Shown piece by piece: positions 2,500 through 22,400 of a stretch of 64,000 nt of DNA. Source of the stretch: Maribacter orientalis (lineage in GTDB: Bacteria; Bacteroidota; Bacteroidia; Flavobacteriales; Flavobacteriaceae); NCBI RefSeq assembly GCF_900109345.1, contig NZ_FNZN01000012.1, positions 1-64,000 on the forward strand. The letters run 5' to 3'. A program made the translations under genes and the position numbers. The first letter of the stretch is position 1; each line of letters begins with the position of its first letter. The notes under the pieces are model-generated. The model searched no databases. It saw nothing but the letters and a program-made list of their open reading frames with translations, and was not told the origin of the DNA.

Positions 2500-3360
2500 A
2501 TGAAAAATAAAATAAAATCAATTCTATATTCTTTTATAGCAGGAACTTTAGGTAATATTCTTGTCTTTCTTCAACCAAAAAAAGCACGCCAACTTGCAGA
2601 GAATAGAATAACTCTGATACACAAAAACAAGAATAGTATGAGTATACCCGAAAGGTTAATGCGTGCTGCACTTGTAAAAAAACTTGATAAAATAGAAGAT
2701 TACGATACCATAGCTAAATTAAATCGAAATTTTTGGGTTGACAATGCAGCTACAGAGTTATTTTCAGAAACGGAGGATGGATTTGAAACTGATTTTCTTC
2801 CAAACTGTACCTTTATATTCGATTTACTTAAGAAAGAATTATCAAATCAACCGGAAAAATTTGACACACTAGTAGAAATTGGAACTGGGAATGGTGATGT
2901 ACTAAATTATCTTAGTACAGAATTCCCTAAAATAGACCATTTTGTAGGTATTGACCTTAGTTTAAAACAAATTGAATTAAATAATAAAAAATTCAAAAAC
3001 AATAAAAAGCTTGAGTTTGTAGCCGAAGATGCTTTTGATTGGGTTAAAGAAAATGGCCATAGCAATACTATTTTTGTATCTTCTAGAGGTGTATTAGAAT
3101 ATTTTCTTGAGGAACGTTTACAAGAATTATTGAAAGAAATAAATCAATTAGGCAAAACTATATTCGTTGCTATAGAACCAAATGGTGGTGATCACGATTT
3201 TGAAACGAACCCTAGTTCTCAACTTTATGGAAATGAACCCTCATTTTCACACAACTACCCAAGGCTTTTCAAAAATGCTGGTTTTAATTTGTGGCATTTT
3301 TCACAACAACCATGGCTTGGAGGAACTGATAATCAAACATTTATTGGAGCTAAAAACTAA
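2500..3360 (+). CDS. Class I SAM-dependent methyltransferase
   Basis: A 286-aa protein. The SAM-binding motif I is VEIGTGNGDVL at residues ~124-134, followed by the acidic ribose-binding position in VGIDLS and a motif-III-like VSSRGVLEYF. Residues ~8-25 are hydrophobic (LYSFIAGTLGNILVFL), so the enzyme may associate with the membrane or have an unusual N-terminal cap. The substrate cannot be told from sequence. It lies 370 bases upstream of the NRPS/PKS genes on the same strand and may be a tailoring enzyme of that cluster, but the gap is long enough for it to have its own promoter. ATG at 2500 is the first start before the conserved fold. Confidence 0.7.
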   Translation: MKNKIKSILYSFIAGTLGNILVFLQPKKARQLAENRITLIHKNKNSMSIPERLMRAALVKKLDKIEDYDTIAKLNRNFWVDNAATELFSETEDGFETDFLPNCTFIFDLLKKELSNQPEKFDTLVEIGTGNGDVLNYLSTEFPKIDHFVGIDLSLKQIELNNKKFKNNKKLEFVAEDAFDWVKENGHSNTIFVSSRGVLEYFLEERLQELLKEINQLGKTIFVAIEPNGGDHDFETNPSSQLYGNEPSFSHNYPRLFKNAGFNLWHFSQQPWLGGTDNQTFIGAKN

Positions 3361-3730
3361 AAGCCTCACACTAAAATACTTGAAAAGTAATATTTTAAAA
3401 ATATTTTTTTTAATGATCTAATTTTAATTTTTAAAAGTAATATTTGACCTTTATTAATTGTTTTAAAACAATGTAATTGGTTTTAAACGTTAAAATAAAC
3501 AACTTGCCTATTTTATGTTTTTAAAGCCATTTTATTTTTTAAATTTATTTTAAAAATTCCCCTTAAAATTTCATAAATACTAATTTCATTCTATATCATT
3601 TTATGTGTCATATAGGATGCTAAAATGGTTGACATTACAAAAAAATGTATACATCCGTTTTTAAATGATGTTAAAATATACCGTAGCTTGGAGAAGTTAA
3701 ATAATACCACTTTAATAAAATTACAAGAAA
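3361..3730. other. AT-rich leader region upstream of the NRPS/PKS genes
   Basis: This 370-base stretch has GC well below 25%. It contains AATATTTT/AAAATATT followed by an eight-T run (about 3389-3413), which may act as a weak terminator for the methyltransferase. It also contains a 13-base direct repeat, AAAAGTAATATTT, at 3383-3395 and 3433-3445. A TTGACA is present at 3629-3634, but no TAnnTTTG -7 box follows at normal spacing. A 37-codon ORF (3625-3738) overlaps the NRPS start. Confidence 0.45.
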
Positions 3731-3738
3731 ATGAGTAA
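3625..3738 (+). CDS. Possible 37-aa leader ORF overlapping the NRPS start
   Basis: ATG at 3625 opens a 37-codon frame (MVDITKKCIHPFLND..., ending LQENE) whose stop TAA overlaps the start of the large synthetase in the sequence ATGAGTAA. That geometry would allow translational coupling. The peptide matches no family I know, is too short to be an MbtH-like protein and has no clear ribosome binding site. It could equally be chance in AT-rich DNA. Confidence 0.2.
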   Translation: MVDITKKCIHPFLNDVKIYRSLEKLNNTTLIKLQENE

Positions 3739-6700
3739 CCCTAATCAACTTTACCTTCTTTTTGAAAAAGCAGCAAAATTATATCCTGATAACTATTGCA
3801 TAATATTAGAAGAAAACAAGGTAACGTATAAGCAAGTTGAACAAGAGGTTCAAAAAGCCTATAGTGCAGTTATACTCAATGCTAAAAATGAAGAATTTAT
3901 AGGGGTTCCTACAACTAGATGTATTGAACAAATCATCTTTGTCTTAGCAATATTAAAAGCAGGCAAGGCTTATCTTCCAATTGATTTTGGTTATCCAAAA
4001 AAAAGACTAGATAGCATAAAAACTAATTCAAATGTTTCTTTTTGTTTAACAACAAAAATAGATGAAACCAATGCATTTGAAATGGGGCTCAAGCCATTAT
4101 TAGTTAATGACCAATCACAATTCGTTGTCGATAATGAAATTGCGCAAAATGACCAAGATTTAGCTACTTATATTTTATACACCTCAGGTTCAACAGGCGA
4201 ACCTAAAGGTGTTTGTATGGGTGAAAAAGCAATGGTTAATTTAATTAATTGGCAGAACGAAAATTCTGTATGTAAGAGTAACTCACGTACCTTACAATTT
4301 GCTCCATTAAGTTTTGATGTTTCTTTTCAAGAAATTATGTCAACCTTAAGTAATGGAGGTACGCTTGTATTAATAAATAATGCATTGAGACTTGATATGG
4401 TTGCGCTTTTAAATTATATTAAAGAGCAACAGGTCAATAGACTATTTCTACCTTTCGTTGCATTACAAGCTTTAGCTGAAACGGCTATCAGTATCGATAT
4501 TTTTCCTGAATCCCTTAAGGAAATAATGACTGCGGGCGAGCAACTCAAAATCACCACTCAAGTAAGAACCTTTTTTAATGAATTAAACGATTGTGTACTC
4601 TATAATCAATATGGACCTACAGAATGCCATGTGGTAACTGAATTAAAACTAGATGGTAAGCCAGCAAATTGGCCTGCTTTACCGACAATTGGTAAACCTA
4701 TTAGTAATACATCCATATTTATCATAGATAAAGATCAGCAACTCGTACCCAATGGTAGTATTGGTGAGCTTTGTATTGCAGGAGTTTGTTTAGCTAAAGG
4801 TTATTTAAATAATGAACAATTAACAAATGAAAAATTTGTCAATTGGAAATCAACCGACGGTAAAATAATTCGAATTTACCGAACTGGAGATATTGCACAA
4901 TATTTACCTGATGGTAATATTGAATTTCTAGGTCGTAAAGATGACCAAGTAAAAATTAGCGGGCACAGAATAGAACTGGCCGAAGTTGAATTAGCCATTA
5001 ATTCCTTATCAGGTATTCACCAAACAGTGGTAATTGCTTCAAGTCATTTGGCTGGACAAACACAACTAGTTGCCTACATGCAACCGAATAAGGAACATAT
5101 GGATATAAATGAAATTCGTAAAGAAATTACGAATTTACTGCCAGAATATATGATCCCGTCTTATTTTATATTAATCGAAAATTTTCCTAGAACTTCTAGT
5201 GGAAAGATTGATAAAAAGAATTTACCCCCACCTAAATATAGTAGACCAAGCTCTGCGCCGCCCTACAAAAAAGCAGTCACTAAAATTCAAAAAAACCTAA
5301 CCAAAGTATTTGTAGATTTATTACATGTACCTAAAATTGGTATTAATGATAATTTCTTTGAATTTGGAGGGACTTCATTATTAGCACAAAAAGTCGTAGC
5401 TGTTTTATTAAAGGATTATAAGTATAAATTACCGGTAACAAAACTGTATCAGTTTCCTAATATCGCCGAAATATCTGATTATTTAGAATCAAGTACTAAA
5501 AGTAAGAATAGAAAATTCATCAAAAAGAATAAAAGCTCGAACTCCTCTAGAGATATCGCCGTCATTGGTATGGCTGGGAGGTTTCCTGGAGCTAATACCA
5601 TTGAAGAATTATGGGATGTTCTCAAAAATGGGAAAGAAACCGTATCATTTTTTTCTAAGGATGAATTGGATTCTAACATTCCTGATCGTTTAAAAAATGA
5701 CCCCCTGTATGTAAAAGCTCGAGGTATAATAACTTCAGCTAAAGAATTTGACGCTTCATTTTTTGGTTTAAATCCTAAAGTAGCTTCAGTAATGGACCCG
5801 CAACAACGACTATTTTTAGAAATAGCATGGGAAGTACTAGAGCAATCGGGTCATCTACCAAAGCACTATAATGGTAGTATTGGTGTTTATGCAGGAACCG
5901 GTACAAATACATATTATAAAAATAATGTTCTTGAAAACAAAGAAGTATTAAGTCAAGTTGGTGAATTTCAAGCAAATACATTAAACGAAAAAGATTATAT
6001 TTCAACAAGAACCGCCTATCATTTAAATTTAAAGGGTCCGGCAGTTAGTGTTCATTCCGCTTGTTCAACCTCACTTCTCGCTATTGCAGAAGCTGTTGAA
6101 TCGATTAGGAGTGGCCAATGTGATGTAGCTCTAGCTGGTGGTTCTAGTATAACCTCTCCAATTAATAGTGGTCATCTTTATCAAGAAGGTTCTATGTTTA
6201 GTCCAGATGGACATTGCCGCTCATTTGACAAAGATGGTAAAGGAACAGTTTTCAGTGATGGTTGTGGTGTTGTACTTTTAAAAAGTTTAGATGCTGCTAA
6301 AAAAGATGGTGATCAAATATTTGGAGTCATTAAAGGTGTTGGAATAAATAACGATGGTGGTGGAAAAGGTAGTTTTACTGCGCCCAGTGTTGAAGGTCAA
6401 TCCGGTGCAATTGTTCGAGCAATAAATGATGCCAATATTTCACCCTCAGAAATTAGTTACATTGAAGCCCATGGAACTGCCACACCAATTGGTGACCCTA
6501 TTGAAATGGAAGGTCTTCACGATGCATTTGGCGAACAAACAAAAAAAGGATATTGCGCTGTTGGATCAATAAAAAGTAACATGGGCCATCTTACGGCTGC
6601 AGCTGGTGTTGCAGGCTTTATAAAAACAATCTTGTCCCTATACCATCAACAGATACCGCCGTCTTTAGGTTTTTCAGAACCTAATCCAGCAATTGATTTT

Positions 6701-9700
6701 ACAAACAGTCCATTTTTTGTAAATAATATATTACGTGAATGGAAATCTGAAAATATTCGTCGTGCCGGAATAAGCTCTTTTGGGGTGGGAGGAACAAACG
6801 TTCATGTAATTGTTGAAGAGTTTGAAAAACAACCCATAAAGTCTGGAGAAAGTAAACCTTTACAACTTCTTACTTGGTCGGCAAAAACTGAAAAAAGTCT
6901 TGATGGTTATAAGACGAGTTTAGGGGATTTTATAAAATCTTCTTCTGACATAAAGTTGGCAGATGTAGCTTACTCTCTAAGTAATACCAGAGAATCTTTT
7001 AATAAAAGAAGTTTCGTTTTAGCTTCAGATTCAGATTTAGAAAGTACAATTAGTAAACTTTTACTAGATGAAAATACAGTTAAAAAATCTGATTTAAAAG
7101 CAGTACCTAGTGAATTGGCATTTCTTTTTCCCGGTCAAGGTGCACAATATTTACAAATGGGAAAAGCGCTCTATGATCATGAAAATGTTTTTAAAGAGGC
7201 AGTAGACCAATGCGCTGAAATTTTACTTAAAGAATTTGATTTTGATATCCGACATATAATTTATCCAAAAGAAAATTTTTTAGAGGCAGAAAAAGCTCTA
7301 AAGGATACCCAATTTACACAACCTGCTTTATTTGTTGTAGAGTATGCCCTTTCTCAACTTTGGATAAGTTGGGGAATTGAACCAACAATTCTTTGTGGTC
7401 ATAGTGTTGGTGAATTTGTAGCAGCACATTTGGCTGGAGTATTTACCCTAAAAGATGCATTGATTTTAGTTGCGATTCGCGGAAGATTAGTAAGTCAACT
7501 TCCAGGCGGAAGCATGTTATCGGTAAGATCCACCTTCAAAAATTTATCTGAACTACTGCCTGAAACACTTTCAATGGCTGCAGTAAACTCAGATTTGTTA
7601 TGTGTGGTATCGGGTGAAGATGAGCCTATAGAGGCATTTGCTAAAGTATTAGAGCAAAAAGAAATTCCGAATAGGTTACTTAAAACAAGTCATGCCTTTC
7701 ATTCTACAATGATGGACCCCGTTTTAGCCAAGTTTGAAGCGGAAGTCAAAAAAATTGAATTGAATTCACCTCTTTTACCTATTATTTCAACTGTAACAGG
7801 TACATGGCTTAGCGAAACTGAAGCTACTGATCCAAAATACTGGACAAATCATTTACGAGCTACCGTTCGTTTTTCAGATGCTATGGAAACGGCTCTTGAA
7901 TTAGAAGATATTTTATTGTTGGAAGTTGGTCCTGGCCGTGCTTTAACTACTTTATCTCAGCAAAAAAAGAAAGCCAAGTCCGTAATATCTATATCCAGTT
8001 TAGTTTTACCTAATGAAAACGAAAATTCTTATCATACTGTTTTATCTGCCTTAGGACAACTATGGCAAAATGGTATTGAACCCAATTGGAAAGAATTCTA
8101 TAAGGGACAATCTAGACAAAAAGTTAGATTACCAGCGTATGTATTTGACAAAAAACTCTGCTGGATAGAGCCAATAAAAAACCAAAACCCTAGTATACAA
8201 AACCATACCTCAATTGATCAGAATACTAATAAATTTATACAACCAGAAATGAATACAGTTATACAACCTGACAGAAAAGTAAAAATTCTGGAGAAAATTT
8301 CAGATATCATTTTGAATACTTCAGGAATAGAATTAGAATCTTCTGAATATGAACATAATTTCCTTGAACTTGGCCTTGATTCACTAGTTTTAACCCAAAT
8401 GGCAATAAGTTGTAAAAATGAATTTAAAACTCCAATTACCTTTCGACAGTTAAATGGTGAATTTAGCACACCAAATCTTTTAGCTAGCCATTTAGACAAA
8501 ACTTTACCGCCAGATCGTTATGCTGTACAAGCACCAACTATACCTATTGCACCCAATGCATCTGTAATAACACCTGCAGTATCTCATACAGCAGCAAATA
8601 TACCTACACAGACAACTACATCATATGCTGTTTCATATGATAACAATAATAGTGCGATAGACCTAATTGCCCAGCAACTTCAAATATTGGGAAGACAATT
8701 AGAATTACTAAAAGGAAATAATAGTAACTCTGGAACGGTAAAAGATAATAGTCCTGCTCCTGTACCAGTTCAAGAATTCCAAAACAATACTATAAATTTA
8801 AATCCTCCCGCTTCATTAGATATACTTTCAGAGGATGAGATAAAGGAGCATAAAAAACCTTTTGGAGCTTCTCCTAAGATAGAAAAGCAATCTACCGAAA
8901 TTCAATCACACCAAAAGTTATTTTTAGAGAAATTAACCACCAGCTACAACAAAAAAACAGCTGCTAGTAAAGCTTATACCCAAAAACATCGTTCTCATAT
9001 GTCAGACCCACGAGTGGTATCTGGCTTTAAACCACTTACAAAAGAACTAGTATATCCAATTGTAGTTGAGAAATCATCTGGCAACAGATTATGGGATATT
9101 GATGGGAACGAGTATATAGATACATTAAACGGATTTGGATCTTGTCTATTTGGTCATCAACCAGAATTCATTACCAAAGCTCTAAAAAAACAAATTGATA
9201 GTGGGTATGAAGTTGGTCCACAACATCCCCTAGCAGGTGAGGTTTGTGAACTACTTTGTGAGTTTACAGGGCATGATCGTGCAGCACTTTGTAATACTGG
9301 CTCAGAAGCTGTTTTAGGTGCCATGCGTATAGCTAGAACCGTAACTGGCCGTTCATTAATTGTAACCTTTACTGGATCTTACCATGGTATTAATGACGAA
9401 GGTCTTGTGAGAGGTTCTAAAAAATTAAAAACTTTCCCAGCCACAGCCGGTATTATCTCTGAATCAGTTCAAAATGTATTGGTTCTAGAATATGGTACTG
9501 ACGAAAGTTTAGAAATAATTCGTAGTCGATCTCATGAATTGGCGGCCGTTCTTGTGGAACCAGTTCAAAGTCGTAGACCTGAGTTCCAACCAATAGATTT
9601 CCTTAAAAAGGTAAGGGAAATAACTTCGGCAACAGAGACAGTACTCATTTTTGATGAAGTTATTACTGGTTTTCGTATGCATCCAGGTGGCGCGCAAGCT

Positions 9701-10426
9701 CTATTTGGTATAAAGGCTGATATTGGCACTTATGGAAAAGTAATTGGAGGGGGTATTTCTATTGGTGCCATAGTGGGCAAAAGAAAATACATGGATGCCT
9801 TAGACGGAGGGTTCTGGCAATATGGCGATAACTCTTACCCAGAAATAGGGGTTACCTACTTTGCAGGTACTTTTGTACGTCACCCCCTTGCATTAGCAGC
9901 TGCAAAGGCATCATTAATTCATTTGCGAGAATTAGGTGAATCTCTTCAAAATGGCCTTAATTTATTAACTGAAAATTTTGCAAAGGATTTAAACAAGGAG
10001 TTTTCTAAACGTGAACTTCCAATGGAAATAAAATATTTTGGTTCATTATGGAGACTTAAGTTCTTAGATGAAATACCGTATTCAGAATTACTGTTCGTTT
10101 TAATGCGTGAAAAAGGTTTTCACATTTGGGATGGCTTTCCTTGCTTTATAACCAGTGCTTTTAAAACAGAAGATATAGATAAACTTATACATGCATTTGT
10201 TACTAGTGTTGATGAACTTATTGCTGTCAATATATTTAATAGCAAAGTATTAAACGCTACCCCTAATCCTGAAGTTTCGTATGCAAATGGTAACAAATCA
10301 TCATTTAAATCATTAAACACACCTCCGGTTGAAGGAGCTAAACTTGGCGTTGATGAATCTGGCAATCCTGCTTGGTTTGTAGTGGACGCAAATAAAAATG
10401 GTTCCTATGTCAAATATGATTTATAG
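3731..10426 (+). CDS. Hybrid NRPS/PKS: A-PCP-KS-AT-ACP-aminotransferase
   Basis: A 2231-aa synthetase with no N-terminal condensation domain, so it starts the assembly line. Order: adenylation ~1-510 (A3 YTSGSTGEPKG at ~149, NQYGPTE ~297, A10 SSGKIDKK ~494); PCP with Ser549 (FGGTSLL); ketosynthase ~608-1040 with Cys778 (SACSTSL), EAHGTATPIGDP and NMGHLTAAAG; acyltransferase ~1130-1440 with Ser1225 (GHSVGE) and HAFHS, the malonyl-type motif; ACP with Ser1551 (LGLDSL); a Pro/Asn-rich linker ~1590-1740; and a class III PLP aminotransferase ~1750-2160 with DEVITGFR and Lys2003 (YGKVIGGG). There is no ketoreductase, dehydratase or methyltransferase domain. By analogy with the MycA/ItuA aminotransferases it should convert the beta-keto-ACP intermediate to a beta-amine. 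By alignment to PheA the pocket reads roughly D-V-Q-V-M-A-Q-V-V, resembling proline codes with His replaced by Gln; this is inferred from memory. Confidence 0.93.
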   Translation: MSNPNQLYLLFEKAAKLYPDNYCIILEENKVTYKQVEQEVQKAYSAVILNAKNEEFIGVPTTRCIEQIIFVLAILKAGKAYLPIDFGYPKKRLDSIKTNSNVSFCLTTKIDETNAFEMGLKPLLVNDQSQFVVDNEIAQNDQDLATYILYTSGSTGEPKGVCMGEKAMVNLINWQNENSVCKSNSRTLQFAPLSFDVSFQEIMSTLSNGGTLVLINNALRLDMVALLNYIKEQQVNRLFLPFVALQALAETAISIDIFPESLKEIMTAGEQLKITTQVRTFFNELNDCVLYNQYGPTECHVVTELKLDGKPANWPALPTIGKPISNTSIFIIDKDQQLVPNGSIGELCIAGVCLAKGYLNNEQLTNEKFVNWKSTDGKIIRIYRTGDIAQYLPDGNIEFLGRKDDQVKISGHRIELAEVELAINSLSGIHQTVVIASSHLAGQTQLVAYMQPNKEHMDINEIRKEITNLLPEYMIPSYFILIENFPRTSSGKIDKKNLPPPKYSRPSSAPPYKKAVTKIQKNLTKVFVDLLHVPKIGINDNFFEFGGTSLLAQKVVAVLLKDYKYKLPVTKLYQFPNIAEISDYLESSTKSKNRKFIKKNKSSNSSRDIAVIGMAGRFPGANTIEELWDVLKNGKETVSFFSKDELDSNIPDRLKNDPLYVKARGIITSAKEFDASFFGLNPKVASVMDPQQRLFLEIAWEVLEQSGHLPKHYNGSIGVYAGTGTNTYYKNNVLENKEVLSQVGEFQANTLNEKDYISTRTAYHLNLKGPAVSVHSACSTSLLAIAEAVESIRSGQCDVALAGGSSITSPINSGHLYQEGSMFSPDGHCRSFDKDGKGTVFSDGCGVVLLKSLDAAKKDGDQIFGVIKGVGINNDGGGKGSFTAPSVEGQSGAIVRAINDANISPSEISYIEAHGTATPIGDPIEMEGLHDAFGEQTKKGYCAVGSIKSNMGHLTAAAGVAGFIKTILSLYHQQIPPSLGFSEPNPAIDFTNSPFFVNNILREWKSENIRRAGISSFGVGGTNVHVIVEEFEKQPIKSGESKPLQLLTWSAKTEKSLDGYKTSLGDFIKSSSDIKLADVAYSLSNTRESFNKRSFVLASDSDLESTISKLLLDENTVKKSDLKAVPSELAFLFPGQGAQYLQMGKALYDHENVFKEAVDQCAEILLKEFDFDIRHIIYPKENFLEAEKALKDTQFTQPALFVVEYALSQLWISWGIEPTILCGHSVGEFVAAHLAGVFTLKDALILVAIRGRLVSQLPGGSMLSVRSTFKNLSELLPETLSMAAVNSDLLCVVSGEDEPIEAFAKVLEQKEIPNRLLKTSHAFHSTMMDPVLAKFEAEVKKIELNSPLLPIISTVTGTWLSETEATDPKYWTNHLRATVRFSDAMETALELEDILLLEVGPGRALTTLSQQKKKAKSVISISSLVLPNENENSYHTVLSALGQLWQNGIEPNWKEFYKGQSRQKVRLPAYVFDKKLCWIEPIKNQNPSIQNHTSIDQNTNKFIQPEMNTVIQPDRKVKILEKISDIILNTSGIELESSEYEHNFLELGLDSLVLTQMAISCKNEFKTPITFRQLNGEFSTPNLLASHLDKTLPPDRYAVQAPTIPIAPNASVITPAVSHTAANIPTQTTTSYAVSYDNNNSAIDLIAQQLQILGRQLELLKGNNSNSGTVKDNSPAPVPVQEFQNNTINLNPPASLDILSEDEIKEHKKPFGASPKIEKQSTEIQSHQKLFLEKLTTSYNKKTAASKAYTQKHRSHMSDPRVVSGFKPLTKELVYPIVVEKSSGNRLWDIDGNEYIDTLNGFGSCLFGHQPEFITKALKKQIDSGYEVGPQHPLAGEVCELLCEFTGHDRAALCNTGSEAVLGAMRIARTVTGRSLIVTFTGSYHGINDEGLVRGSKKLKTFPATAGIISESVQNVLVLEYGTDESLEIIRSRSHELAAVLVEPVQSRRPEFQPIDFLKKVREITSATETVLIFDEVITGFRMHPGGAQALFGIKADIGTYGKVIGGGISIGAIVGKRKYMDALDGGFWQYGDNSYPEIGVTYFAGTFVRHPLALAAAKASLIHLRELGESLQNGLNLLTENFAKDLNKEFSKRELPMEIKYFGSLWRLKFLDEIPYSELLFVLMREKGFHIWDGFPCFITSAFKTEDIDKLIHAFVTSVDELIAVNIFNSKVLNATPNPEVSYANGNKSSFKSLNTPPVEGAKLGVDESGNPAWFVVDANKNGSYVKYDL

Positions 10427-10484
10427 CCTTAAATAACTCAACTTTTTCTAAAAGGATTAATTTTCAAAAATAACCAACGAATAA

Positions 10485-13400
10485 ATGCAAGAGAAAGTCA
10501 CTTTTAATCCATTTTCCGGTCCTGTGATTGAGAAAGTCATTCCTATCATACAAGCACAGTCTGAAATATGGATTGCCTGTAAATTAGGAGGAGAAGATGC
10601 GAATAGGGCTTATAACGAATCTGTTTCACTAGTTTTGAAAGGCAACTTAAAAAAAGTTGCCTTAGAAGATGCTATTGCGAAATTAGTAAAAAGACACGAA
10701 GCGTTAAGAGCTACCTTTAGTCCCGATGGGCGTTTTATGACTGTTTATGAAGAATTTCCAATAGAACTCTCTTATCAAGATTTTTCTCATTTTGATAGCA
10801 TTGAAAAAAATGATGCCATTAAAGACTATTTGAAAGGAGATGCGAATACTATCTTTGATTTAAATAAAGGTCCACTACTTAAAATTGGTTTACTAAAACT
10901 TTCAGAATTAGAACATCAATTAATTATTACAGGGCACCATATTGTATGCGACGGTTGGTCTATGGGTATTATATTACAAGAATTAGGCGGTTTATATTCC
11001 GCACATATTCTAGGTACTACACCCAATATTGCTCAACCTGAAACCTTTAGCTCTTATGCCGAAGAAGAACAAGAGTTTATTGGAAGTGAAGAATATAAAA
11101 AAACTGAGCAGTATTGGCTTAAACAATATGAATCTTCAGTTCCTGTAGTTTCACTTCCTACAGATTTTCCTAGACCACAACTTAGAACCTTCAAGAGTAA
11201 TCGTTTAGATTTTGGAATTGACAATAGTCTAGTATCCGATTTAAAAAAAGTTGGGATTAAATCTGGAGCTAGTTTTGTTGTTACCCTAATGGCCGCCTTT
11301 GAAGTCTTCCTGTATAGACAAACCGGCCAAGATGAATTGGTTTTAGGTCTACCAGCTGCTGGCCAATCATTAAGTGGTAAAACTCAATTGGTAGGACATT
11401 GTGTTAACTTACTTCCGTTAAAAAGTAAACTTTCAGCAAATATTCCGTTCAATGAATATTTAAAAAATAGAAAAACTGAAATTTTTGATGCTTACGAACA
11501 TCAACAGTTAAGTTTTGGCCAGTTACTTCAAAAACTCGCCATTGCTAGAGATCCATCAAGAGTGCCATTAGCCCCAATTACCTTTAACATTGATATGGGC
11601 ATGGCTAATGATGTGGTTTTTAATGGATTAGAATATAAGCTAAAAAGCAACCCTAGAGCATTCGAAACATTTGAACTTTTTTTAAACGCTACAGGAACAG
11701 AAGATGAACTTATCTTAGAGTGGTCATACAATACGTCTCTTTTTAAACCGGCAACTATAGAGCAGATGATGTCTTCATTTAAAAAAGTGCTTCATGGTAT
11801 CGTAGCTAATCCTCATGTAGAAATAGGGAATATTATTAAAGTAGATGCTTCAGCCTATTCAGAATTGAATAATACAAAGGCATCTTACCCACAATTACCT
11901 TTGCATGAATTAATTGCCCAACAATGTAAAATAGACCCTTCTAAACAAGCAATAAAATTTGGTACATCTGAAATATCATATGAAAATTTAGAAAAGCAAG
12001 TTCACCAAATAGCTCATTATTTGAAGGAACAAGGTGTACTTCCAGGGGATTATGTCGCTGTATCTTTACCACGCTCCATTGAATTAATTACCATTTTACT
12101 GGCTATAATGGAAAGTGGTGCTGCTTACCTTCCCTTGGATCCTAACTATCCAAGTAAACGACTTGAGTTTATGTTAGAGGATTCTGGGTCGAAATACTTG
12201 ATCACAACAGAAACATCTTCATTAACTTTACAGGATGGCGTATCACAATTATTTATCGAATCTATTTTTTCAGATTTAGTAAATTATTCAACTCTACCAC
12301 TAAATTTAGACGTTAATACTAATCAAGTAGCGTATATCTTATACACTTCTGGATCAACAGGCAAACCAAAAGGGGTTACGGTTACCCATAAAAACTTAGT
12401 TAATTTATTATATAGTGTTTTAGAAAAACCTGGTATTCAAAAAACCGATAAAGTAATTTCAATAACCACAGTTTCCTTTGACATTGCTGGTTTTGAACTA
12501 TACGCTTCACTTTTAAAAGGGGCTCAATTGATTTTAACTAGTGAAGAAACTGCTAAAGACCCTAGACTATTACTAGAAGTACTAAAAAAAGAAGAAATAA
12601 CAGTAATGGAGGCTACACCTGCAACTTGGCAAATGTTATTAGATGCAGGTTGGAAAAATCATTTACCTCTAAAAGCTTTTTGTACCGGAGAAGCTTTACC
12701 CATAGTTTTAGCAAAAAACATTTTGGGCAAGGTTGATGAATTATGGAATCTTTATGGTCCTACGGAAACAACTATTTGGTCGGCAATAAAAAAAGTTCAT
12801 AAGTCTGATGATGTGGTAACTATAGGAAATCCTATAGCCAACACCCAATTATATATTATGAACGAGCAGGAGCTTTTAGTAGAACCTGGTAGAATTGGAG
12901 AACTATGCATTGCAGGAGATGGAGTTGCACAAGGGTATTGGAAACGTTCGGATTTAACTAATGAAAAATTTATAAAAAACCCTTTTGAAACAGAATTAGG
13001 GCCTGTTTTATATCGTACAGGAGATTTAGCAAAATTACTCCCTTCAGGCGAAGTACAATGTCTTGGACGAATAGACCAACAGATAAAAATTAGGGGCCAA
13101 CGTGTGGAACTTGGTGAAATTGAGGAGGCTTTAGATTCTTTACAAGGGGTACAATCTTCTGTCGTTTTGCTCCATGAAGATCGTTTGGTTGCAAACCTAA
13201 TTGTTTCAGATATGGTAAGCGATTATACTGAGCAATTTAGTGAATGGAAAGAAATTCTAAGTGAACAACTTCCAACCCACATGGTACCTCATATTTTTAA
13301 TGTTGTTAAAGAATTCCCTACTACGCTTAATGGTAAAATAGATCGTAAAAGCTTACTTAACCTATTACCCAATAAAACAGCATCTAAAATATTTGCAGAA

Positions 13401-14462
13401 CCATCTACAGCATCTGAAACAACTATTTTGACCATTTGGCAAAAATGTCTGGGAATTGATAAAATTGATGTTAATAGCGACTTTTTTGAACTTGGAGGAC
13501 ATTCTGTAATTGCCGTTAGGGTAATGATGCTATTAGAGGATGAAACCGGAAATAGATTACCGCTTGTAGCTTTACTTAAACACCCAACGATTAAAAAGTT
13601 GGCTTCCTACATGGATAGTGAATTTGTAACTTGGGATTCATTAGTACCCTTAAAGCCAAAAGGAAGCAAACCACCATTATACATTGTGCATGGAGCACAC
13701 CATAATGTATTAATATTTAATGAATTAGCTCAAAAATTAGATGAAGACCAACCTGTTTATGGTCTTCAAGCAAGAGGTTTAGATGGTGTTGCTGAACCCC
13801 ATGACTCTATGCACGATATGGCAAGAGATTATATTAAGGAAATTCAGATTACAAATCCAAATGGTCCTTATTGTTTGGCAGGGTTTTCACTAGGTGGTAC
13901 TATAGCTTTTGAAATGGCCAGGCAACTTAGGGAGCAAGGCAAAGAAGTAAAAATAGTTGCGGAGTTTGACACTTATGTATTCCCCGATTATTATTTTAAA
14001 AGCCCTATAAAGAAAAAAATAGTATCCGTTGGTTATACCATAGTAAAAGTTGGTTATGTACTACTAAATATGTTAACAAGTAAAAAGAATTTTAAACGAA
14101 GAACTGGTCTATTTATGCTTCACATTAAAGGGATATTTTTACGTTTGAAATACGGTAAGGAAAAAAGTCATGAAATGCAGTTTCATCGAGTTTTAAAAAT
14201 GGAGCAAAATCATATAAAGGCTACTGATAGTTATTACATTCGCCCACAAGATATCGTTATTGATTTGTTTAAGGCAGAGGAGGAAATTAATTTAGTCCAT
14301 GATAAAAAATTCTTAGGATGGAAAAAATTCGCTAAAAAAGGTGTTAGAAGGCATATGGTTCAAGGTAATCATATAGATATGTTTGATAAATCGAATGTTG
14401 AGGTATTTGCAACTAAACTTCAATACGTTCTAGATAATCACAATTTAGAAAGTGTACAGTAG
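10485..14462 (+). CDS. NRPS termination module: C-A-PCP-thioesterase
   Basis: A 1325-aa protein 58 bases after the first synthetase. The condensation domain (~20-440) has an intact HHxxxDG at His151-Asp156 (HHIVCDGWS), and its N-terminus (QAQSEIWIACKLGGED) resembles condensation domains that follow aminotransferase modules. The adenylation domain (~460-960) has YTSGSTGKPKG, NLYGPTETT and GKIDRKS; its pocket reads about D-I-F-A-F-T-L-I-W and I cannot assign a substrate. The PCP carries Ser1007 (LGGHSV). The type I thioesterase (~1060-1325) has Ser1135 (GFSLGG), an Asp in AEFDTY and a C-terminal His in QGNHIDMF, so the triad looks complete. Its lid region is long and basic. The module adds one amino acid to the beta-amino acyl chain and releases the product, as a linear acid or by cyclisation. 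Confidence 0.93.
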   Translation: MQEKVTFNPFSGPVIEKVIPIIQAQSEIWIACKLGGEDANRAYNESVSLVLKGNLKKVALEDAIAKLVKRHEALRATFSPDGRFMTVYEEFPIELSYQDFSHFDSIEKNDAIKDYLKGDANTIFDLNKGPLLKIGLLKLSELEHQLIITGHHIVCDGWSMGIILQELGGLYSAHILGTTPNIAQPETFSSYAEEEQEFIGSEEYKKTEQYWLKQYESSVPVVSLPTDFPRPQLRTFKSNRLDFGIDNSLVSDLKKVGIKSGASFVVTLMAAFEVFLYRQTGQDELVLGLPAAGQSLSGKTQLVGHCVNLLPLKSKLSANIPFNEYLKNRKTEIFDAYEHQQLSFGQLLQKLAIARDPSRVPLAPITFNIDMGMANDVVFNGLEYKLKSNPRAFETFELFLNATGTEDELILEWSYNTSLFKPATIEQMMSSFKKVLHGIVANPHVEIGNIIKVDASAYSELNNTKASYPQLPLHELIAQQCKIDPSKQAIKFGTSEISYENLEKQVHQIAHYLKEQGVLPGDYVAVSLPRSIELITILLAIMESGAAYLPLDPNYPSKRLEFMLEDSGSKYLITTETSSLTLQDGVSQLFIESIFSDLVNYSTLPLNLDVNTNQVAYILYTSGSTGKPKGVTVTHKNLVNLLYSVLEKPGIQKTDKVISITTVSFDIAGFELYASLLKGAQLILTSEETAKDPRLLLEVLKKEEITVMEATPATWQMLLDAGWKNHLPLKAFCTGEALPIVLAKNILGKVDELWNLYGPTETTIWSAIKKVHKSDDVVTIGNPIANTQLYIMNEQELLVEPGRIGELCIAGDGVAQGYWKRSDLTNEKFIKNPFETELGPVLYRTGDLAKLLPSGEVQCLGRIDQQIKIRGQRVELGEIEEALDSLQGVQSSVVLLHEDRLVANLIVSDMVSDYTEQFSEWKEILSEQLPTHMVPHIFNVVKEFPTTLNGKIDRKSLLNLLPNKTASKIFAEPSTASETTILTIWQKCLGIDKIDVNSDFFELGGHSVIAVRVMMLLEDETGNRLPLVALLKHPTIKKLASYMDSEFVTWDSLVPLKPKGSKPPLYIVHGAHHNVLIFNELAQKLDEDQPVYGLQARGLDGVAEPHDSMHDMARDYIKEIQITNPNGPYCLAGFSLGGTIAFEMARQLREQGKEVKIVAEFDTYVFPDYYFKSPIKKKIVSVGYTIVKVGYVLLNMLTSKKNFKRRTGLFMLHIKGIFLRLKYGKEKSHEMQFHRVLKMEQNHIKATDSYYIRPQDIVIDLFKAEEEINLVHDKKFLGWKKFAKKGVRRHMVQGNHIDMFDKSNVEVFATKLQYVLDNHNLESVQ

Positions 14463-15192
14463 TATATTTTGTAGTTCGGTTAAGATACTCATAAGTGGTT
14501 CTCAAAAATCTATTCACGAGAAATCGGCATTAAAAATATATAAAGTTCATCTACCCTCCTATCACAATAACATTTCAAAATACAAAGAGCACCTTACTAC
14601 TACTGAGTTAGAAAAGGCTGAACGCTATCATTTTGAAAAAGATAAGAATAGGTTTATTATCTGTAGATCATTCCTAAGGTTACTATTGTCAGAATATATA
14701 GGTTTAGAGGCAAAGGACATAGTTATAGCCACAGATGAAAACAAAAAGCCCTATTTACCATCACATCCGAAAGTTTTTTTTAATGTCTCTCATATAGTAG
14801 AATATGGTTTAATTGCAATTTCCACTAATCCAGTTGGTGTTGACGTAGAAAATGTAGATAGAGAATGGGATTATTCTGAAACAGCACCTCGAATATTTGG
14901 TGAAGCAGAACTTAAAAATTTAGCAATAACTAGTGATAAAGTTCGATTGTTCTTTACATATTGGACTCGTAAAGAAGCTATCGTCAAAGCAACTGGAAAA
15001 GGTATTGAAGATAATTTTATTCATATTCCTGCTTGTGACGGTATGCATCTAATTAATCCAGAACTAATAAATAATATCGCCAATTTGTTGGTGTTAAGCT
15101 TTGAAATAGAAGAACATTTTATTGGTACTATCGCATTGGTAGGCAAAATAGAAGATATTAAACAGCTGTACTTCTCCCCTCTGCCTTTTTAA
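14452..15192 (+). CDS. 4'-phosphopantetheinyl transferase, Sfp type
   Basis: A 246-aa Sfp/AcpT-family enzyme that moves phosphopantetheine from CoA to the carrier-protein serines of the two upstream synthetases. The family motifs are visible: FNVSHI (~107), VGVDVENVD (~128) with the Mg-binding acidic pair, and WTRKEAIVKATGKG (~178), all apparently intact. The GTG at 14452 is the only standard start upstream of the conserved LKIYKVHLP segment. It overlaps the synthetase stop by 11 bases, so translation is probably coupled. About 25 residues then precede the usual family N-terminus. It is the last gene of the cluster. Confidence 0.9.
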   Translation: MYSSIFCSSVKILISGSQKSIHEKSALKIYKVHLPSYHNNISKYKEHLTTTELEKAERYHFEKDKNRFIICRSFLRLLLSEYIGLEAKDIVIATDENKKPYLPSHPKVFFNVSHIVEYGLIAISTNPVGVDVENVDREWDYSETAPRIFGEAELKNLAITSDKVRLFFTYWTRKEAIVKATGKGIEDNFIHIPACDGMHLINPELINNIANLLVLSFEIEEHFIGTIALVGKIEDIKQLYFSPLPF

Positions 15193-15352
15193 AAAATAGT
15201 ACTTGTATTGAGTATGATTTGTGACTTTCCTAAAAAAAGATCTAAGCCAAGTTTAATTAACCTTTTTGTACTTGTACTAAACCATGTGTTAAAAGTCTTT
15301 ATACTCAACTAAAAATTGAAGTTAAGTGCAATTAAAAATCACGAGAAAACAA

Positions 15353-16141
15353 TTATTTCGTATCAAACTTCGCTTCTATCTTTTTAAATACCTTTAGAGT
15401 TTTACTAACTAATGAAATTTTAAGTATTTTATTAATGGTATTTACACCAAGTACTAATTTTATTTTCCTTCTTAATTTAGAAAAATAGGGTAACCAAGAA
15501 CTATTAAAATGATGGATGGTATACGTGTTTTTAGTACTATGAATTTTACCAGTTTGTACATCTTTAGGGCTAAAAAACTCACACGGAAATAAGTAAAACT
15601 TACTGTCATCTTTAATAAGACTCTTTACATCCTTTGCTTCCGCTGTAGTCATCGATACAATTTGTTTTATTTTTTGTATCTGTTTTTTTAGAATTGTTGG
15701 TGCTATAGTAATGTCAAAAGTACCATCCTCCTTTACAAATAATCTATTATCATAATGCTTTAAACAATAAGTTACCCATTCAGCATTTTTTTCTGCACCA
15801 AAAATCGCTGCCTCTATAATATTTTCATATTCTAAACCAACAAAATAAGGAAGTTGTAATAGATCATCAAACTTTTTAAGAATTTGAACATCTGTATCCA
15901 AATAAATACCCCCGTATTGTTGCACAGCATATAGCCTTACTATATCAGAAGCAAAAGCATACTTTTTCTTTTCAAAAGCTTCTTTTGCAAAGGGCCATTC
16001 TTCTAAGTTGAAACGTTTAGTGTCCCATAACATAAATTCATAATCTGGCAATAAGACCTTCCAAGAAGCTATATTTCTTTTTATCTCTTGTGGAAATTCT
16101 TCACCACTTAACCAGCAATAATGAATAATTTTAGGTATCAT
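15353..16141 (-). CDS. GT32-like (Och1-type) glycosyltransferase
   Basis: A 262-aa protein starting MIPKIIHYCWLSG, the typical opening of the DXD sugar-binding glycosyltransferases (GT32, capsular polysaccharide synthesis type). The DXD motif is YLDTDVQ at ~97-103, preceded by the conserved ASDIVRLYAVQQYGGIY stretch. It should transfer a sugar from a nucleotide donor to a surface glycan; donor and acceptor are unknown. It faces the NRPS cluster tail to tail and stands alone on the minus strand with ~345 bases before the next gene, so no link to the cluster is indicated. Confidence 0.8.
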   Translation of the reverse strand: MIPKIIHYCWLSGEEFPQEIKRNIASWKVLLPDYEFMLWDTKRFNLEEWPFAKEAFEKKKYAFASDIVRLYAVQQYGGIYLDTDVQILKKFDDLLQLPYFVGLEYENIIEAAIFGAEKNAEWVTYCLKHYDNRLFVKEDGTFDITIAPTILKKQIQKIKQIVSMTTAEAKDVKSLIKDDSKFYLFPCEFFSPKDVQTGKIHSTKNTYTIHHFNSSWLPYFSKLRRKIKLVLGVNTINKILKISLVSKTLKVFKKIEAKFDTK

Positions 16142-16431
16142 GAATATGTTTTTATCGTAAATTTTAATTTTTACTAGAAAATAAAAATAATCTTAATAAA
16201 TCGATATTTTCAATTTTCCCGTTCAAGTCTTAAAATTAAAAGTTAAGCTTAAAATATAGAACGAATAGAATAAACATTAAGTATGCTCTTCCCTCTAAAA
16301 CAACTATGCTATACAATTAAAATAATTTTGAATAACATATAAGGTAAACATACATTCAAGCTATTAAAGTATTCTGAAATCTTTCAAGAAAAATGATTGA
16401 TTATATGTATTAAATTTATGAATCGAAAAAC
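16142..16431. other. Intergenic stretch upstream of the glycosyltransferase
   Basis: AT-rich DNA between the glycosyltransferase start and the terminator of the giant minus-strand gene. I see no ORF, RNA gene or clear TAnnTTTG box; it presumably holds the glycosyltransferase promoter. Confidence 0.4.
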
Positions 16432-16468
16432 AAAAAAGGCTATCCAAACGAATGGAATAGCCTTTTTT
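16432..16468 (-). terminator. Rho-independent terminator of the giant PKD protein gene
   Basis: AAAAAAGGCTATCC and GGAATAGCCTTTTTT flank an eight-base loop; one A is bulged. The A/T tracts on both sides make it usable in either direction. It lies 18 bases past the stop codon of the minus-strand gene. Confidence 0.8.
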
Positions 16469-16486
16469 CTGCAAATTTTTGTCACT

Positions 16487-19400
16487 TTAATTTATAATCA
16501 ATCGTTTCGAAACTGGTTCATTATTATTAAACATTAAGGTTATAACATAGACTTCGTTTCTATAAGCACCTGTTGGTATTCGTAACCTACCATCTTGTAG
16601 AACATCATCAACAATATATTGTCTTATTAATCTACCTGCACTATCGTGCATCATAACACCAAGTATTTCATCCATATTGAAGTTATCTTTCATGATAACC
16701 TCAACATACTCAATTGAAGGGTTTGGAGCCAAAATGAATTCAAAAGAAGGTTGTTCTTCGGTCACAGTAATGGTGATGTTCGCTGTTGATTCTAGTCCCT
16801 GTTCATCGGTTACAGTCAATAGTACGTCAAACACACCTATAACATCAAAAACATGTTGTGGATTAACTTCCGAAGATGTAGTTCCATCTCCAAAATCCCA
16901 AGTATAGGTAGTAATACCCAAATCGTCAGTTGATTTGTCACCTGTAAATATCACTTCTAAAGGTGCTGCACCAACAATAACATCAGCATTTGCTACAGCT
17001 ACCGGTGCCATATTATCTAAATTATCGGTCACGGTTATAGTAATTACATCCGTGTTTTGAAGTCCACCATCATCTGTAACGGTTAACATTACATCGTAAC
17101 TACCAACAATACTAAAGGTATGAACCGGGTTTGTTTCCGACGATGTGGTTCCATCACCAAAGTCCCAATTATAGGCAGTAATACCAACATCATCAGTTGA
17201 TTGATCCCCAGTAAAGGTCACTTCCAAAGGCGCTAAACCTTCAGTAGCATTTGCACTAACTACAGCTACTGGTGACATATTGGTTGAACCATCGGTTACC
17301 GTTATACTAATTGCATCCGTATCCTGAAGTCCGCCTTCATCGGTCACAGTTAAGATGACCTCAAAAATACCCACAGTAGTAAATGTATGAACAGCATCTG
17401 CATCTGTAACACTAATACCATCCCCGAAATCCCAATTGTAAGATACAATACCTACATCGTCCGTAGATTGGTTACCAGAAAAGCTTACCACTAAAGGAGC
17501 CTCTCCTTGTGTAATATCCGCTTGGGCTATTGCAACCGGGGCTTCATTTGCAGTAGTTACCGTTATGGTCACCGTTTCATTATCCAATAAACCATCTGAA
17601 TCGGTAACCGTTAAGACCACATCATACGTTCCTACATTAACAAAGGTATGTACTGGATTTGCTTCCGAGGAAATTGTTCCGTCATTGAAATTCCAAGCAT
17701 ATGTCACAATACCCACATCATCAGTAGATTGATCACCAATAAAGCTTACCTCTAGTGGAGCTCCACCTTGCTCAACATCAGCAGTAGCAATCGCTACCGG
17801 TGCTCCGTTTGCCCGATTAGCGGTGATAGTTAAGGTTTCCGTGTCTTCCAAACCTCCCACGTCGGTTACTGTCAATACTACTTCATAGGTTCCGTCAACA
17901 TTAAATGTATGTGCCGGATTGGCAATAACAGAACTTGTACCGTCACCAAAATTCCAACTGTAAGACACCACAACATCATCATCTGTTGACTGATCACCAA
18001 TAAAGTTAACTTCTAAAGGTGCATCACCATCCGTAACATCGGAACTGGCTACCGCTACGGGTGCCATATTAGGGGTAACTACTATAGTTATTGTATCGGT
18101 ATCCTCAAGTCCACCTTCATCGGTAACCGTTAAGACAACGTTATACGTGCCCTCACTGGCAAAAATATGTACCGGGTTAGCTTCCGTTGAATTTGCACTA
18201 TCGCCAAAGTTCCATGCATAGGCTATAAGGCCTTCTGCATCAGTAGACTGATCACCTGTAAATGCGACCTCTAAAGCGGCAATACCGTTTATAATATCCG
18301 CACTCGCCACGGCTTCAGGGGCACCGTTCACAACAATTTCTATCGGATCGCTTATATCTTCATAACCATCACCGTCGGTTACTGTCAAGGTAACGTTAAA
18401 TGTACCCCCTTGAGTGAAGCTATAATTAGGATCTGCATCGGTAGAAGTATCACCATTACCAAAGTCCCATAAATAAGTTACAATATTATTCTTGTCATCG
18501 GTAGAAGCACTACCAGTGAACTGAATAGCTAATGGAGCATTTCCTGCATTCGTACTAGCGGTAGCTATAGCCTCCGGTGCAAACCCGGTAGGCAAGAATT
18601 CCCATTTAAAGAAATCGTTATTATCAACATTTGTATTCGCAATAAGGTTGCCATTAGGTTCTACTGTTAAATGGTTTGTCGTATTTGGAGCAGGTGGCAA
18701 TAGAGCATTTATGATAAAATACGAACCATCACCGGCATTAACAATTTGGAACAACTGTGCTATCCTACCCGAACCAATACTTTCTATATAAGACCAAATA
18801 TTGGTTCCTGGAGCATTGCTGCCTCCCTGATTATCCAAATACAAATCTCTTCCTGTACCATCCTGTTGTGTGAATCTAATACTATACAATCCATTTCCTT
18901 CGGCTATCAATTCAAAATGCTGATATTCAGAAGCATCATATATACCCGTACCCATATTTACCTGCCACTCTAGCGTGCCGTCATCGGGCATCATATTCAG
19001 TTGATTGCCTACATTACGTATTTGATAAATACCAGCTACGGGACCTCCATTATCACCACCATCATTATCATAATTTATACCTGCAACCGTATCCCCAATG
19101 CCCGAACTATATTTGGGATCATTAAATGGTGCGATTACAACAGCTTCCACAACAAAATCCTGAGCGCCATCCAGATCTGGCGTAACATCGTCTAGACCAG
19201 TAACTGTTACCGTCTGTAAAACATTCCAGTTGGTATCATCAAAAATTAGCTGGGCTACACTCACACTTGCCTCGGCAACACCGACAACGACCTGTATACC
19301 AACCGTTACCGGTGCAGTAGGTGCTTCCTTAAGGGATACCGTAAACGTATCCGTATCGCCATCTTCGTTAGTGAACAATATGTCCTGACTCACATTAATA

Positions 19401-22400
19401 CCCGTGTTACCAAGGGTTGTGATATCTTCAAAACGCCATCTATAGGCATCCGCTCCATTATCTACATCTACAAGAATATTTCCGTTCGCATCTATGGTCA
19501 AATAATGTCCTCCCAGTTCACTTATTATATGGTAAGTGTTATTCCCCGCATCCTGAATAGTCCATAGTTGAGAAACCGTCTCGTTTGCGGTAAATTGCCA
19601 TACGTTAGTACCTCGATTGGCATTGCCCTGTTCAACATCCATCGCTTTTCCAGAATGCTGGGCAATCAAGGCATACAGTCCATTATCGCGATACACCAAC
19701 TCAAATTGTTGATGGGCATCACCTTGGTACAATCCCTGTTCCATGTTTACACCATTAACTGTTCCTGCATCCACAACCTCGGCCGATAGACCACTGTCCA
19801 CATTGATAAGCCTATACGTTCCTGGAGCTGGAGGAGCCCCTGCTCCACCATCATTATCTTCATTATAACCCGCTAAAGTTTCAATAAAGCCAGCGAAAGC
19901 GGCATCACTACGTGAACCATCCACCGCTATTTCTATATTATAATATTGAACCCCGTCTACATCAACATCATCTACACCCGTTGCAGTAACCGTTTGTGGA
20001 ATATCCCAGTTGGCAGCCGTAAAAGTAAGTTCCGTTACTGAAAGCGTAACTTCATCCGTTGCATCAGCTCCGTAAACAAGCAAGACTACATCATCTACCG
20101 GTGCCGATTTTAGAGCGACATCAAAATCATCTGTTGTACCTTCCTCAGATGTCACTACTAAATTAGACTGAATATCAATACCTATAGTAAAGGGTGCACT
20201 TGTTGGTAAAAATTCCCATCTGTAAATATCGCTACCATCATCGGTTCCAACAACGACATTACCGTTTGGCTCTATTCCGAGAAAATTGCCGTTAACTCTA
20301 GCTATGATATGAAAAGTGTTATTTCCCGCATCTACGATTTGCCATTGTTGTGATACTGTTGTGTTATCTAACCACTGCCATACATTCACTCCTTTACCAT
20401 CTCCAAAACCGGTTACATCAAGATATCGGTTACTACTTATTGCCTTAAACTTAAAATAATTCAATTCTGTAGCATTTTCCAATGCCCAGTGCTGGTAATT
20501 TAATCCTTCATACCCACCTTGTAGCACGTTCGTACCCTGTACATTACTAGCATCAGCAACCTGCATTGTGGCTTTCGTAGCATAGTTCACCAGTCTATAA
20601 GTGTCTAAATTAGGAGTAGGAGCTATTGGCTCCATGGCATCAATCCATGCTTGAATAAGTGCAACACCCTCGGTATCAACTACATTTTTTGATAAGGGCG
20701 GCATCTTGATACCAGGTACTAAACTTTGTGCCCTATGATATACTTGTGAATTGGCTGCATCTCCGGGAATCAATATTCTTTGATTAGATGGTAAATCAGG
20801 CACTGCCTGATTATACCCAGCTGTTAAAAGCCCAGTTTGCGCTAGTGTATTTAATAACCGAAGGTCAAAATTTGCTCTGTTGCCTGTATCCGGTTGGTGG
20901 CAATAGGCACAATTATTATCTAAATAAGAACGCGCTTTTTGATCTAGAGTACCATTAGGGTCGTCAATCGCAACATGGGTCAAATACCCTGGGGTATCCG
21001 TATCACTAATATTAATATTTAATATCCCCAAACCTTCTTCACCTAATGTTACCAATTGGTTAGCTAGAATACCACTAGGATCATGCGAAGAATAATCATA
21101 TTCACTATTCAAATTACGGGTACGTAAACCTAAGGTACCCCCCAAATCTGGGTTATGACAACTAATACATTGACTATTTGAAGGATACATCCAATCCTCT
21201 TGACGTTGACCTCCACCAACTTTATCTATATCTATACTAATAGTCTCACCTACCTCCATGTCTACTAATACAGCATCACTTTCATCTGAAAGCCATTTGT
21301 ATGTTAAGAAATAAAAATTACCATCACTACCTTTTATTGAAAACCGTGTTTCTATTTTACGGGTAATCGTAGGATCGTTGTCATCAATGGAATAATCAAA
21401 ATGTTTTATGATTATAGAACCAACAGGGAAAATCCAATTACCATTTTCAGAGAATTCTATCTGCTCAGCCGGCGTATCATGTGTACCATTGTTTGGAATA
21501 CCAATCCAGCGTTTTTTCAATGCTCCATCTGACCAAAATGACTCTATCATTTCATAAGGAACAAAACCATCGGCCACAGTTAAGTTTGTCAAATCTGTAA
21601 ATGCCCCTGTTTGAGATAATAACCCAGGTGCATCTTCTAAATCAATCGAAGCTTTTAATCTGTAAATATTACTGTTATTGCCTAATCGCAACAAATACAA
21701 TTCACCCCTGTCATCCTGCCCAAAAGAAATAATATCTAGTGGCAGAAAAGTTCCTAATGACTGTTTAGATCCAGTATTAATATCAATTTCATAGATGGCA
21801 TCAGTTTGTCCATAATCAGCACAGATGTATTTTCCAACTAAGCCAGGCAGATTAGACCCACGATAAACATAGCCTCCCGTTATGGAAGTAGCTTCAGCAC
21901 GTGTGAATTGAGTCAATGGGGGCGAATGAGTAGTACCGGGATAAAAAATTGGATTACAAGGAGTTCCAGCCTTTGTTGGTGGACTAAAGGGAGCATTAGC
22001 CTCATAAAAGGGCCAACCATAATTTTTTTTATCTAATATAGTAGGGTCAAGAACATTAACTTCCTCATGGGTGTTCTCGCCTACTTCACCAATATACAAA
22101 ATACCGGTATCCTTATCCTTTGTCATGCGGTGGGGGCTTCTATTCCCTATAGAAACGTATTCTTCAAATACTGCTCCGCTAGCGTCGTTAAAAGGATTAT
22201 TTTCAGGAATGTAATAGAAATCTCCAGACATTTCTAAACCCTCAGTATTGGGATGGGTATTACCGACACCAGGGTCTTGCAAGAATCTTCTCGGCGCGTG
22301 ACTAACGGCTCCTCCAATCATATCCACATCGATACGAAGTACTCCTCCATCTAAGTTTTCAGAAATATTCTGTGCATTTAAATATGTAGCTTGATCTCCA

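Follow-up and report, generated by a model that had tools for sequence, protein, structure and literature searches.

A hybrid NRPS/PKS cassette with an in-line aminotransferase and a putative small-molecule product in Maribacter orientalis

Do the two synthetases and the 4'-phosphopantetheinyl transferase (PPTase) that are encoded side by side in Maribacter orientalis make up a complete hybrid line of the nonribosomal peptide synthetase (NRPS) and polyketide synthase (PKS) type, and what would such a line produce? The genes lie in the first 64,000 nucleotides of contig NZ_FNZN01000012.1, a stretch that we call the window (G000:C20:1-64000, G000 being the window's own genome) and whose position 1 is the contig edge. 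We propose, with a probability of roughly 0.72, that they constitute a self-contained cassette making a small molecule, most likely a free one; the parts, residues, domain order, mosaicism, and context invoked for this reading are those apparent from sequence.

Integrity and domain organization of the assembly line

Domains of the window proteins were called from Pfam profile matches, and catalytic motifs were located in their sequences. The three open reading frames named by the first-pass annotation were all recovered (3731-10426, 10485-14462, and 14452-15192), and Pfam agrees with the domain orders that it had given, namely adenylation, peptidyl carrier, ketosynthase, acyltransferase, acyl carrier, and aminotransferase (A-PCP-KS-AT-ACP-AMT) in the first synthetase and condensation, adenylation, peptidyl carrier, and thioesterase (C-A-PCP-TE) in the second, plus the PPTase. 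Its catalytic residues are likewise in place: KS Cys778, AT Ser1225, carrier Ser549, Ser1551, and Ser1007, AMT Lys2003, TE Ser1135, and the HHxxxDG motif of the C domain. The KS also carries the EAHGT and NMGH motifs, the HAFH motif of the AT is of the malonyl type, and the Ser, Asp, and His columns of the TE are conserved in all nine aligned sequences. Chance is excluded as the source of the first synthetase, which forms one full frame in 15 genomes of the genus, the window's own included. That the cluster is a remnant or non-functional could be argued from a relative with in-frame stops (G010) and from two relatives without the AMT; given that full frame and the intactness of every motif checked, we find this scarcely credible.

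The AMT domain (PF00202) spans residues 1775-2132 and the C domain opens the next protein, so the AMT sits between the ACP and C domains. Its best solved matches are two structures of mycosubtilin synthase A (6kfm, E 8e-112; 6kfu, E 1e-111), and the best aminomutase match is far weaker (3l44, E 2e-47). These matches support the earlier description of the line as closed, minimal, and hybrid, its in-line AMT being of the MycA type. The loading adenylation domain (A1) was also correctly described as being of the amino-acid type: it keeps Asp235 and scores above the TIGR01733 cut-off. MycA, of mycosubtilin synthesis in the iturin family, has the same kind of in-line aminotransferase; however, it is loaded with a fatty acid by an acyl ligase. 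Membership in the iturin/mycosubtilin lipopeptide family was rejected, since the window line loads through an amino-acid A domain. The line thus differs from MycA in its A-PCP loading, in its one extension, and in its one further residue, and this mode of loading would therefore place the new amine vicinal to the alpha-nitrogen, unlike in MycA.

As to its extent, the cluster had been set to start at position 2500; this position, however, opens a gene for a class I S-adenosylmethionine (SAM)-dependent methyltransferase and not a synthetase or PPTase gene. The synthetases and the PPTase had been recognized, but the methyltransferase and a gene for a CPBP-like protein (1448-2260) had been overlooked as members of the cassette, as had the mosaicism and the polysaccharide context described below.

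Comparison with described and related lines

The line of the window is real and intact, and its kind of hybrid line is already known. The novelty that had been attached to the layout does not stand, because the domain order of the first synthetase is tabulated for another bacteroidete, Pedobacter heparinus, whose protein C6XWU5 is listed as A-CP-KS-AT-CP-PLP1, of the GSA type, with the prediction Nrp-Mal-Gly-Pk (Milano et al., 2013; PMC3870968). That table row gives no product or function, and the comparison is with its description only. Homologues are common as well: in many class-level relatives, a motif map places a C-A-PCP-TE gene and a PPTase gene beside such a first protein. The window differs from the other loci in residues, with a proline-like A1 and a non-canonical second adenylation domain (A2). 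In the open-licence literature we found no paper on the product of such a line, flavobacterial lines included, or on a polysaccharide link.

All ten domains occur in the same order in one chain of 3429 aa encoded on a plasmid of Aliiroseovarius sp. M344 (WP_260519409.1), which supports the domain order across both synthetases of the window. Genes for a PPTase, a CPBP-like protein, and a methyltransferase adjoin this line, and polysaccharide genes lie near; the M344 line differs in being fused, in its sequence (KS-AT 43% and AMT 49% identical), and in its loading code DALWLGGTF. Plasmid-borne lines of Rhizobium and Sinorhizobium combine KS-AT (about 43% identical to the window), AMT (47-49%), C, and A domains in one protein, with polysaccharide genes and, in most, a PPTase; in CCGE531 a separate protein provides the loading A-PCP, and a third protein consists of C-PCP-TE. 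The first synthetase of the window ends in a tail. Of 55 proteins that bear a KS and measure 1700-2600 aa, 46 have the tail pattern PAW[FYV] in their final 60 aa; the five fused proteins scanned gave no match to the tail. The C-terminal tail is kept in two loci without an AMT (L087, G303:C1:796606-801528; L088, G413:C1:1661468-1666408), whose lines would hand a beta-ketone to the C domain.

Predicted substrates and mechanism

The A1 pocket region matches only two of the solved pockets at E<=1e-8, one from tyrocidine synthase 2 and one from gramicidin S synthase 2; both align as DVQLIAHVV and presumably represent the proline modules TycB1 and GrsB1. The code DVQFIAHVV, present in three class-level relatives (G516, G833, and G669), is nearer still to the proline-module pockets than that of the window. 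In this strain, A1 is predicted to load a proline-like alpha-amino acid. The nearest solved pockets of A2 are 4zxh (AB3403, ABBFA_003403) and 5u89, which we take to be glycine enzymes; we do not claim glycine, because positions 239, 278, 299, and 301 of the window pocket do not fit that of a glycine enzyme. Elsewhere, the A2 codes are DILQ[LI]G[MVL]IW in many relatives and DAMWLGIVC in the G004-type congeners.

We infer the substrates, the diamine, the methylation site, the mode of release, and the biological role of the line as follows. The PPTase would arm the three carriers, A1 would load the alpha-amino acid on the first PCP, and KS and AT would add one malonyl extension. The AMT would then convert the ACP-bound beta-ketone to a beta-amine and thereby yield a vicinal 3,4-diamino acyl unit, which in the case of proline would be 3-amino-3-(pyrrolidin-2-yl)propanoyl. 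This unit would pass in trans to C-A-PCP, where a second amino acid would be added, and the TE would release the product. The methyltransferase, whose fold leans to N-methyltransferases, probably methylates an amine, and the CPBP-fold protein, in which no protease centre is recognisable, may be an accessory at the membrane. As a whole, the cassette evolves by A-domain swaps and, in the genus of the window, also by block replacement at a chromosomal site beside exopolysaccharide genes.

The second synthetase as partner

The search for C domains covered 42 genomes, G010, G124, and G197 having been left out of an earlier 45. In 37 of them, the C domains found are confined to a single candidate partner gene and, in some first synthetases, a half domain; the candidate is adjacent to the first synthetase in 31 of these 37 genomes and separate in six; over all 42 genomes, it lies within about 5 kb in 36. 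The C domain of the window is the sole PF00668 match in its own genome. Since 37 of the 42 genomes lack a further C domain, a single deletion would be a clean test. Second synthetases of 2421-2427 aa occur in G028 (L049:1558-8841), G022, and L064; that of G028 comprises, by Pfam, two C, two A, two PCP, and one TE domain, and the extra A domains carry the codes DATKIGEVG (G028 and G022) and DFWNIGMVH (L064). In G004 (L048:6863-14245) and nine other loci of the genus, a condensation domain reduced to its C-terminal half (profile about 192-456) opens the first synthetase ahead of A1, possibly as a fossil of a C-A origin.

Distribution and mosaic evolution

The 60 genomes near the window comprise its own, 35 congeners, and 24 others. 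The full frame of the first synthetase is found in 15 of the 60, and no full-length copy occurs outside the genus, among those 24 others. It is split or cut by contig ends in G008 and G020, and it has several in-frame stops in G010 (L043/L044, G010:C1:1340633-1347317), a one-contig genome that is 81% complete, where sequencing error or decay may be the cause. A family scan of 397 genomes gave 19 matches at E<=1e-300, of which 15 extend to the AMT, two (G303 and G413) stop before it, and two (G252 and G236) are other lines. In a class scan of 395 genomes, 38 matched at E<=1e-250. Apart from the window's own genome, 17 genomes, with 18 rows between them, have matches that extend to residue 2226 or further, and the other 20 genomes match partially, although the two inspected among these (G602 and G745) carry the AMT. 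The contig scan yielded 12 loci, nine from Winogradskyella and one each from Maribacter thermophilus HT7-2, an Allomuricauda metagenome-assembled genome (MAG), and an unclassified Flavobacteriaceae MAG. Some part of the line is matched by 3454 plasmid records, and the plasmid comparison used 12 loci taken from the best 15 of these. Relatives are spread over at least two bacterial phyla, and homologues are frequent both in Bacteroidia and on plasmids of proteobacteria. On the mobilizable plasmid pSLIN02 of Spirosoma linguale (L137), the first synthetase at 11929-18750 has the loading code DFWNIGMVH.

Ahead of one KS-AT core, the loading codes differ by species (DVQF-, DMVQ-, DAMW-, DAEN/DAEH-, DFWN-, and DATK-types). 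The A1 domain of the window is 73% identical to that of G355, 33% to that of G002, and 34% to that of G191; its KS is 71-81% identical across all 11 tabulated genomes, with 73% to G002. Its C domain is nearest to G002 (78%), its A2 and TE to G028 and G022 (83-84%), and its AMT neither to G355 (73%) nor to G028 (74%) but to G191 and G010 (81-82%). The KS clade of the window comprises seven rows (support 94, not starred). In approximately unbiased (AU) tests on quick LG+G4 trees, with groups picked after viewing the tree, the A1 data reject this seven-row clade (p-AU 1.8e-38), and the KS-AT data reject both the flavobacterial DVQF group (p-AU 5.5e-29) and a single clade of five own-genus loci at one chromosomal site (p-AU 8.7e-94).

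Congeners with the cassette at the same site share its flanks with the genome of the window, the sugar transferase being 81-90% and the FemAB-like protein 75-77% identical, and the DXD glycosyltransferase of the site in G002, G023, G028, and G022 is 67-78% identical to that of the window. The rpoB identity is 96-98% to the same-site congeners versus 88% to G355; despite this order, A1, KS, and AT of the window are nearer to G355. Given shared flanks, high rpoB identity, and conflicting domain trees, the cassette has therefore been exchanged both at the site and internally; loading A domains have been swapped wholesale, and congeners hold different cassettes at one chromosomal site. Such A-domain exchange before a conserved KS-AT-ACP-AMT core across many species offers natural examples for assembly-line engineering.

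Several observations weigh against the proposed cassette and its working. The A2 pocket, with E278, F299, and T301, fits no code known to us. The AMT is absent from G303 and G413, and amination is therefore not indispensable; nor does the AMT of the window track G355 (73% identity versus 74-78% in the congeners G028, G022, G002, and G004). The halves of the line are separate in 6 of 42 genomes (by 25 kb in G794, by 32 kb in G473, and on other contigs in G516, G833, G551, and G613), and the partner status in these six is assumed. No C-A-PCP gene is annotated within the 12-kb flanks of the first protein on Spirosoma linguale pSLIN02. The Variovorax partners (L138:18621-23630 and L141:18576-23582) have the order C-A-PCP-C-PCP without a TE, so release must differ there. 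A flavobacterial promoter pattern was no commoner than the chance expectation.

Polysaccharide gene neighborhoods

The product might instead not be free, but a peptide-polyketide unit serving as a substituent or anchor of the neighbouring exopolysaccharide, placed on a sugar or amino sugar during or after release, perhaps with the involvement of a FemAB/GNAT-like protein of the polysaccharide part. We searched for a listed sugar transferase (PF02397) within 25 kb of 46 loci in 45 genomes; 44 loci remain once the window, which begins at a contig edge, and G124, on a contig of 17 kb, are set aside. Such a gene is near 21 of the 44, including all 15 own-genus loci (G010 among them) and 6 of the 29 Bacteroidia loci outside the genus, where 1.29 were expected (P 0.0014). 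Thinning the outside set to 23 loci still leaves six (P 0.0004), two of which are in one genome (G736). On the other hand, 23 of the 29 outside loci have no listed sugar transferase within this distance, and genes for cytochrome bd and phospholipase surround the one Winogradskyella locus that was annotated by Pfam (L062). Polysaccharide islands are also hot spots of insertion, and the own-genus loci are not independent.

Gene order points to the same neighbourhood. The end of contig C16 of the window's own genome carries glycosyltransferases, a sugar transferase, a FemAB-like gene, and the start of a secreted protein, which is the order that precedes the cassette in congeners, and we infer that C16 joins upstream of the window. 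Ten congeners with the full frame share a second arrangement, annotated in G004, where the line has GDP-mannose dehydratase and sugar transferase genes on one side and export, Wzz-like, Wzy-like (below the Pfam cut-off), and flippase genes on the other. Polysaccharide genes lie beside 10 of the 11 proteobacterial loci compared, namely all eight Rhizobiaceae loci (seven by sugar-transferase hidden Markov models, one by annotation), Aliiroseovarius sp. M344, and Variovorax VAI-C; the Variovorax WDL1 locus has a single glycosyltransferase only, and the locus annotation of Spirosoma pSLIN02 has no polysaccharide genes. The cassette of G416 contains a FemAB-like gene, and the replacement of whole blocks at a fixed site is reminiscent of switching at antigen loci. 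A TE, however, usually releases an acid or a ring, and on balance we consider the attached product unlikely. The wider proposition is more doubtful: a cross-phylum exchangeable cassette would build peptide units with vicinal amines as decorations or anchors of exopolysaccharide, and swaps of A domains and of whole cassettes at the polysaccharide locus would change surface chemistry like O-antigen sugar-gene switching. For the line of the window in general, the new and testable part is the exchangeable cassette with its recurrent place beside polysaccharide genes; if the polysaccharide link is true, surface polymers of Bacteroidota and rhizobia would owe some of their variation to assembly-line chemistry.

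Accessory genes and other features of the locus

The methyltransferase and the CPBP-fold protein belong to the cassette (Table 1). The latter has the CPBP/Rce1 fold, with Glu133 and Asn216 invariant among 11 aligned sequences and no invariant His among them. The catalytic site of CPBP proteases consists of Glu, two His, and Asn. A membrane protease of the Rce1 type was rejected as an identity for this protein, as the fold fits but the 11 sequences share no invariant His. Tailoring genes vary: GNAT and alanine-racemase-like genes are present in seven of nine Winogradskyella loci, some have a free TE, and a cupin/JmjC protein is found at the G416 cassette, with relatives in G355, G230, and G622. 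Small NRPS/PKS lines often make siderophores or other metallophores, and vicinal amines can bind metals, as is generally known; yet no receptor, siderophore exporter, or catechol/hydroxamate gene appears among the neighbours annotated, which at the other loci are a minority, and a metallophore is in our view very improbable here.

Table 1. Features of the cassette and its surroundings, in window coordinates
Feature	Coordinates	Strand	Basis
CPBP-fold (Rce1/SpdC-like) membrane protein, 270 aa	1448..2260	+	
Class I SAM-dependent methyltransferase, 286 aa	2500..3360	+	
First synthetase, A-PCP-KS-AT-ACP-AMT and C-terminal tail ending PPVEGAKLGVDESGNPAWFV, 2231 aa	3731..10426	+	
Loading adenylation domain A1, code DVQFMAQVV (proline-like)	3752..5230	+	PF00501, PF13193
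PCP of first synthetase, Ser549 (GGTS)	5297..5485	+	Pfam PP-binding, motif
Ketosynthase, Cys778 (ACSTS)	5549..6814	+	Pfam ketoacyl-synt, motif
Acyltransferase, Ser1225 (GHSVGE), HAFH at 1321	7121..8062	+	Pfam Acyl_transf_1, motif
ACP, Ser1551, GLDS at 1548	8273..8470 (limits approximate)	+	Second PP-binding stretch
GSA/MycA-type aminotransferase (AMT), Lys2003, YGKV at 2001	9053..10126	+	PF00202 Aminotran_3
Second synthetase, C-A-PCP-TE, 1325 aa	10485..14462	+	Pfam
Condensation domain, HHIVCDG at residue 151	10530..11837	+	PF00668, motif
A2, second adenylation domain; glycine-type scaffold, altered pocket, code DIFEFTLIW	11919..13367	+	
PCP of second synthetase, Ser1007 (GGHS)	13422..13610	+	Pfam PP-binding, motif
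Thioesterase, Ser1135 (GFSLGG)	13674..14459	+	Pfam Thioesterase, motif
4'-Phosphopantetheinyl transferase, 246 aa	14452..15192	+	PF01648 (ACPS), PF22624 (AASDHPPT_N)
Flanking DXD-type glycosyltransferase (context, not assembly line)	15353..16141	-	PF04488

The PPTase gene overlaps that of the second synthetase, and its start codon is uncertain. On the minus strand beside the cassette, 16487-23095 encodes a protein of 2202 aa in which seven PKD stretches accompany matches to glucose/sorbosone dehydrogenase and ricin-lectin, and the contig edge at position 1 cuts another secreted repeat protein.

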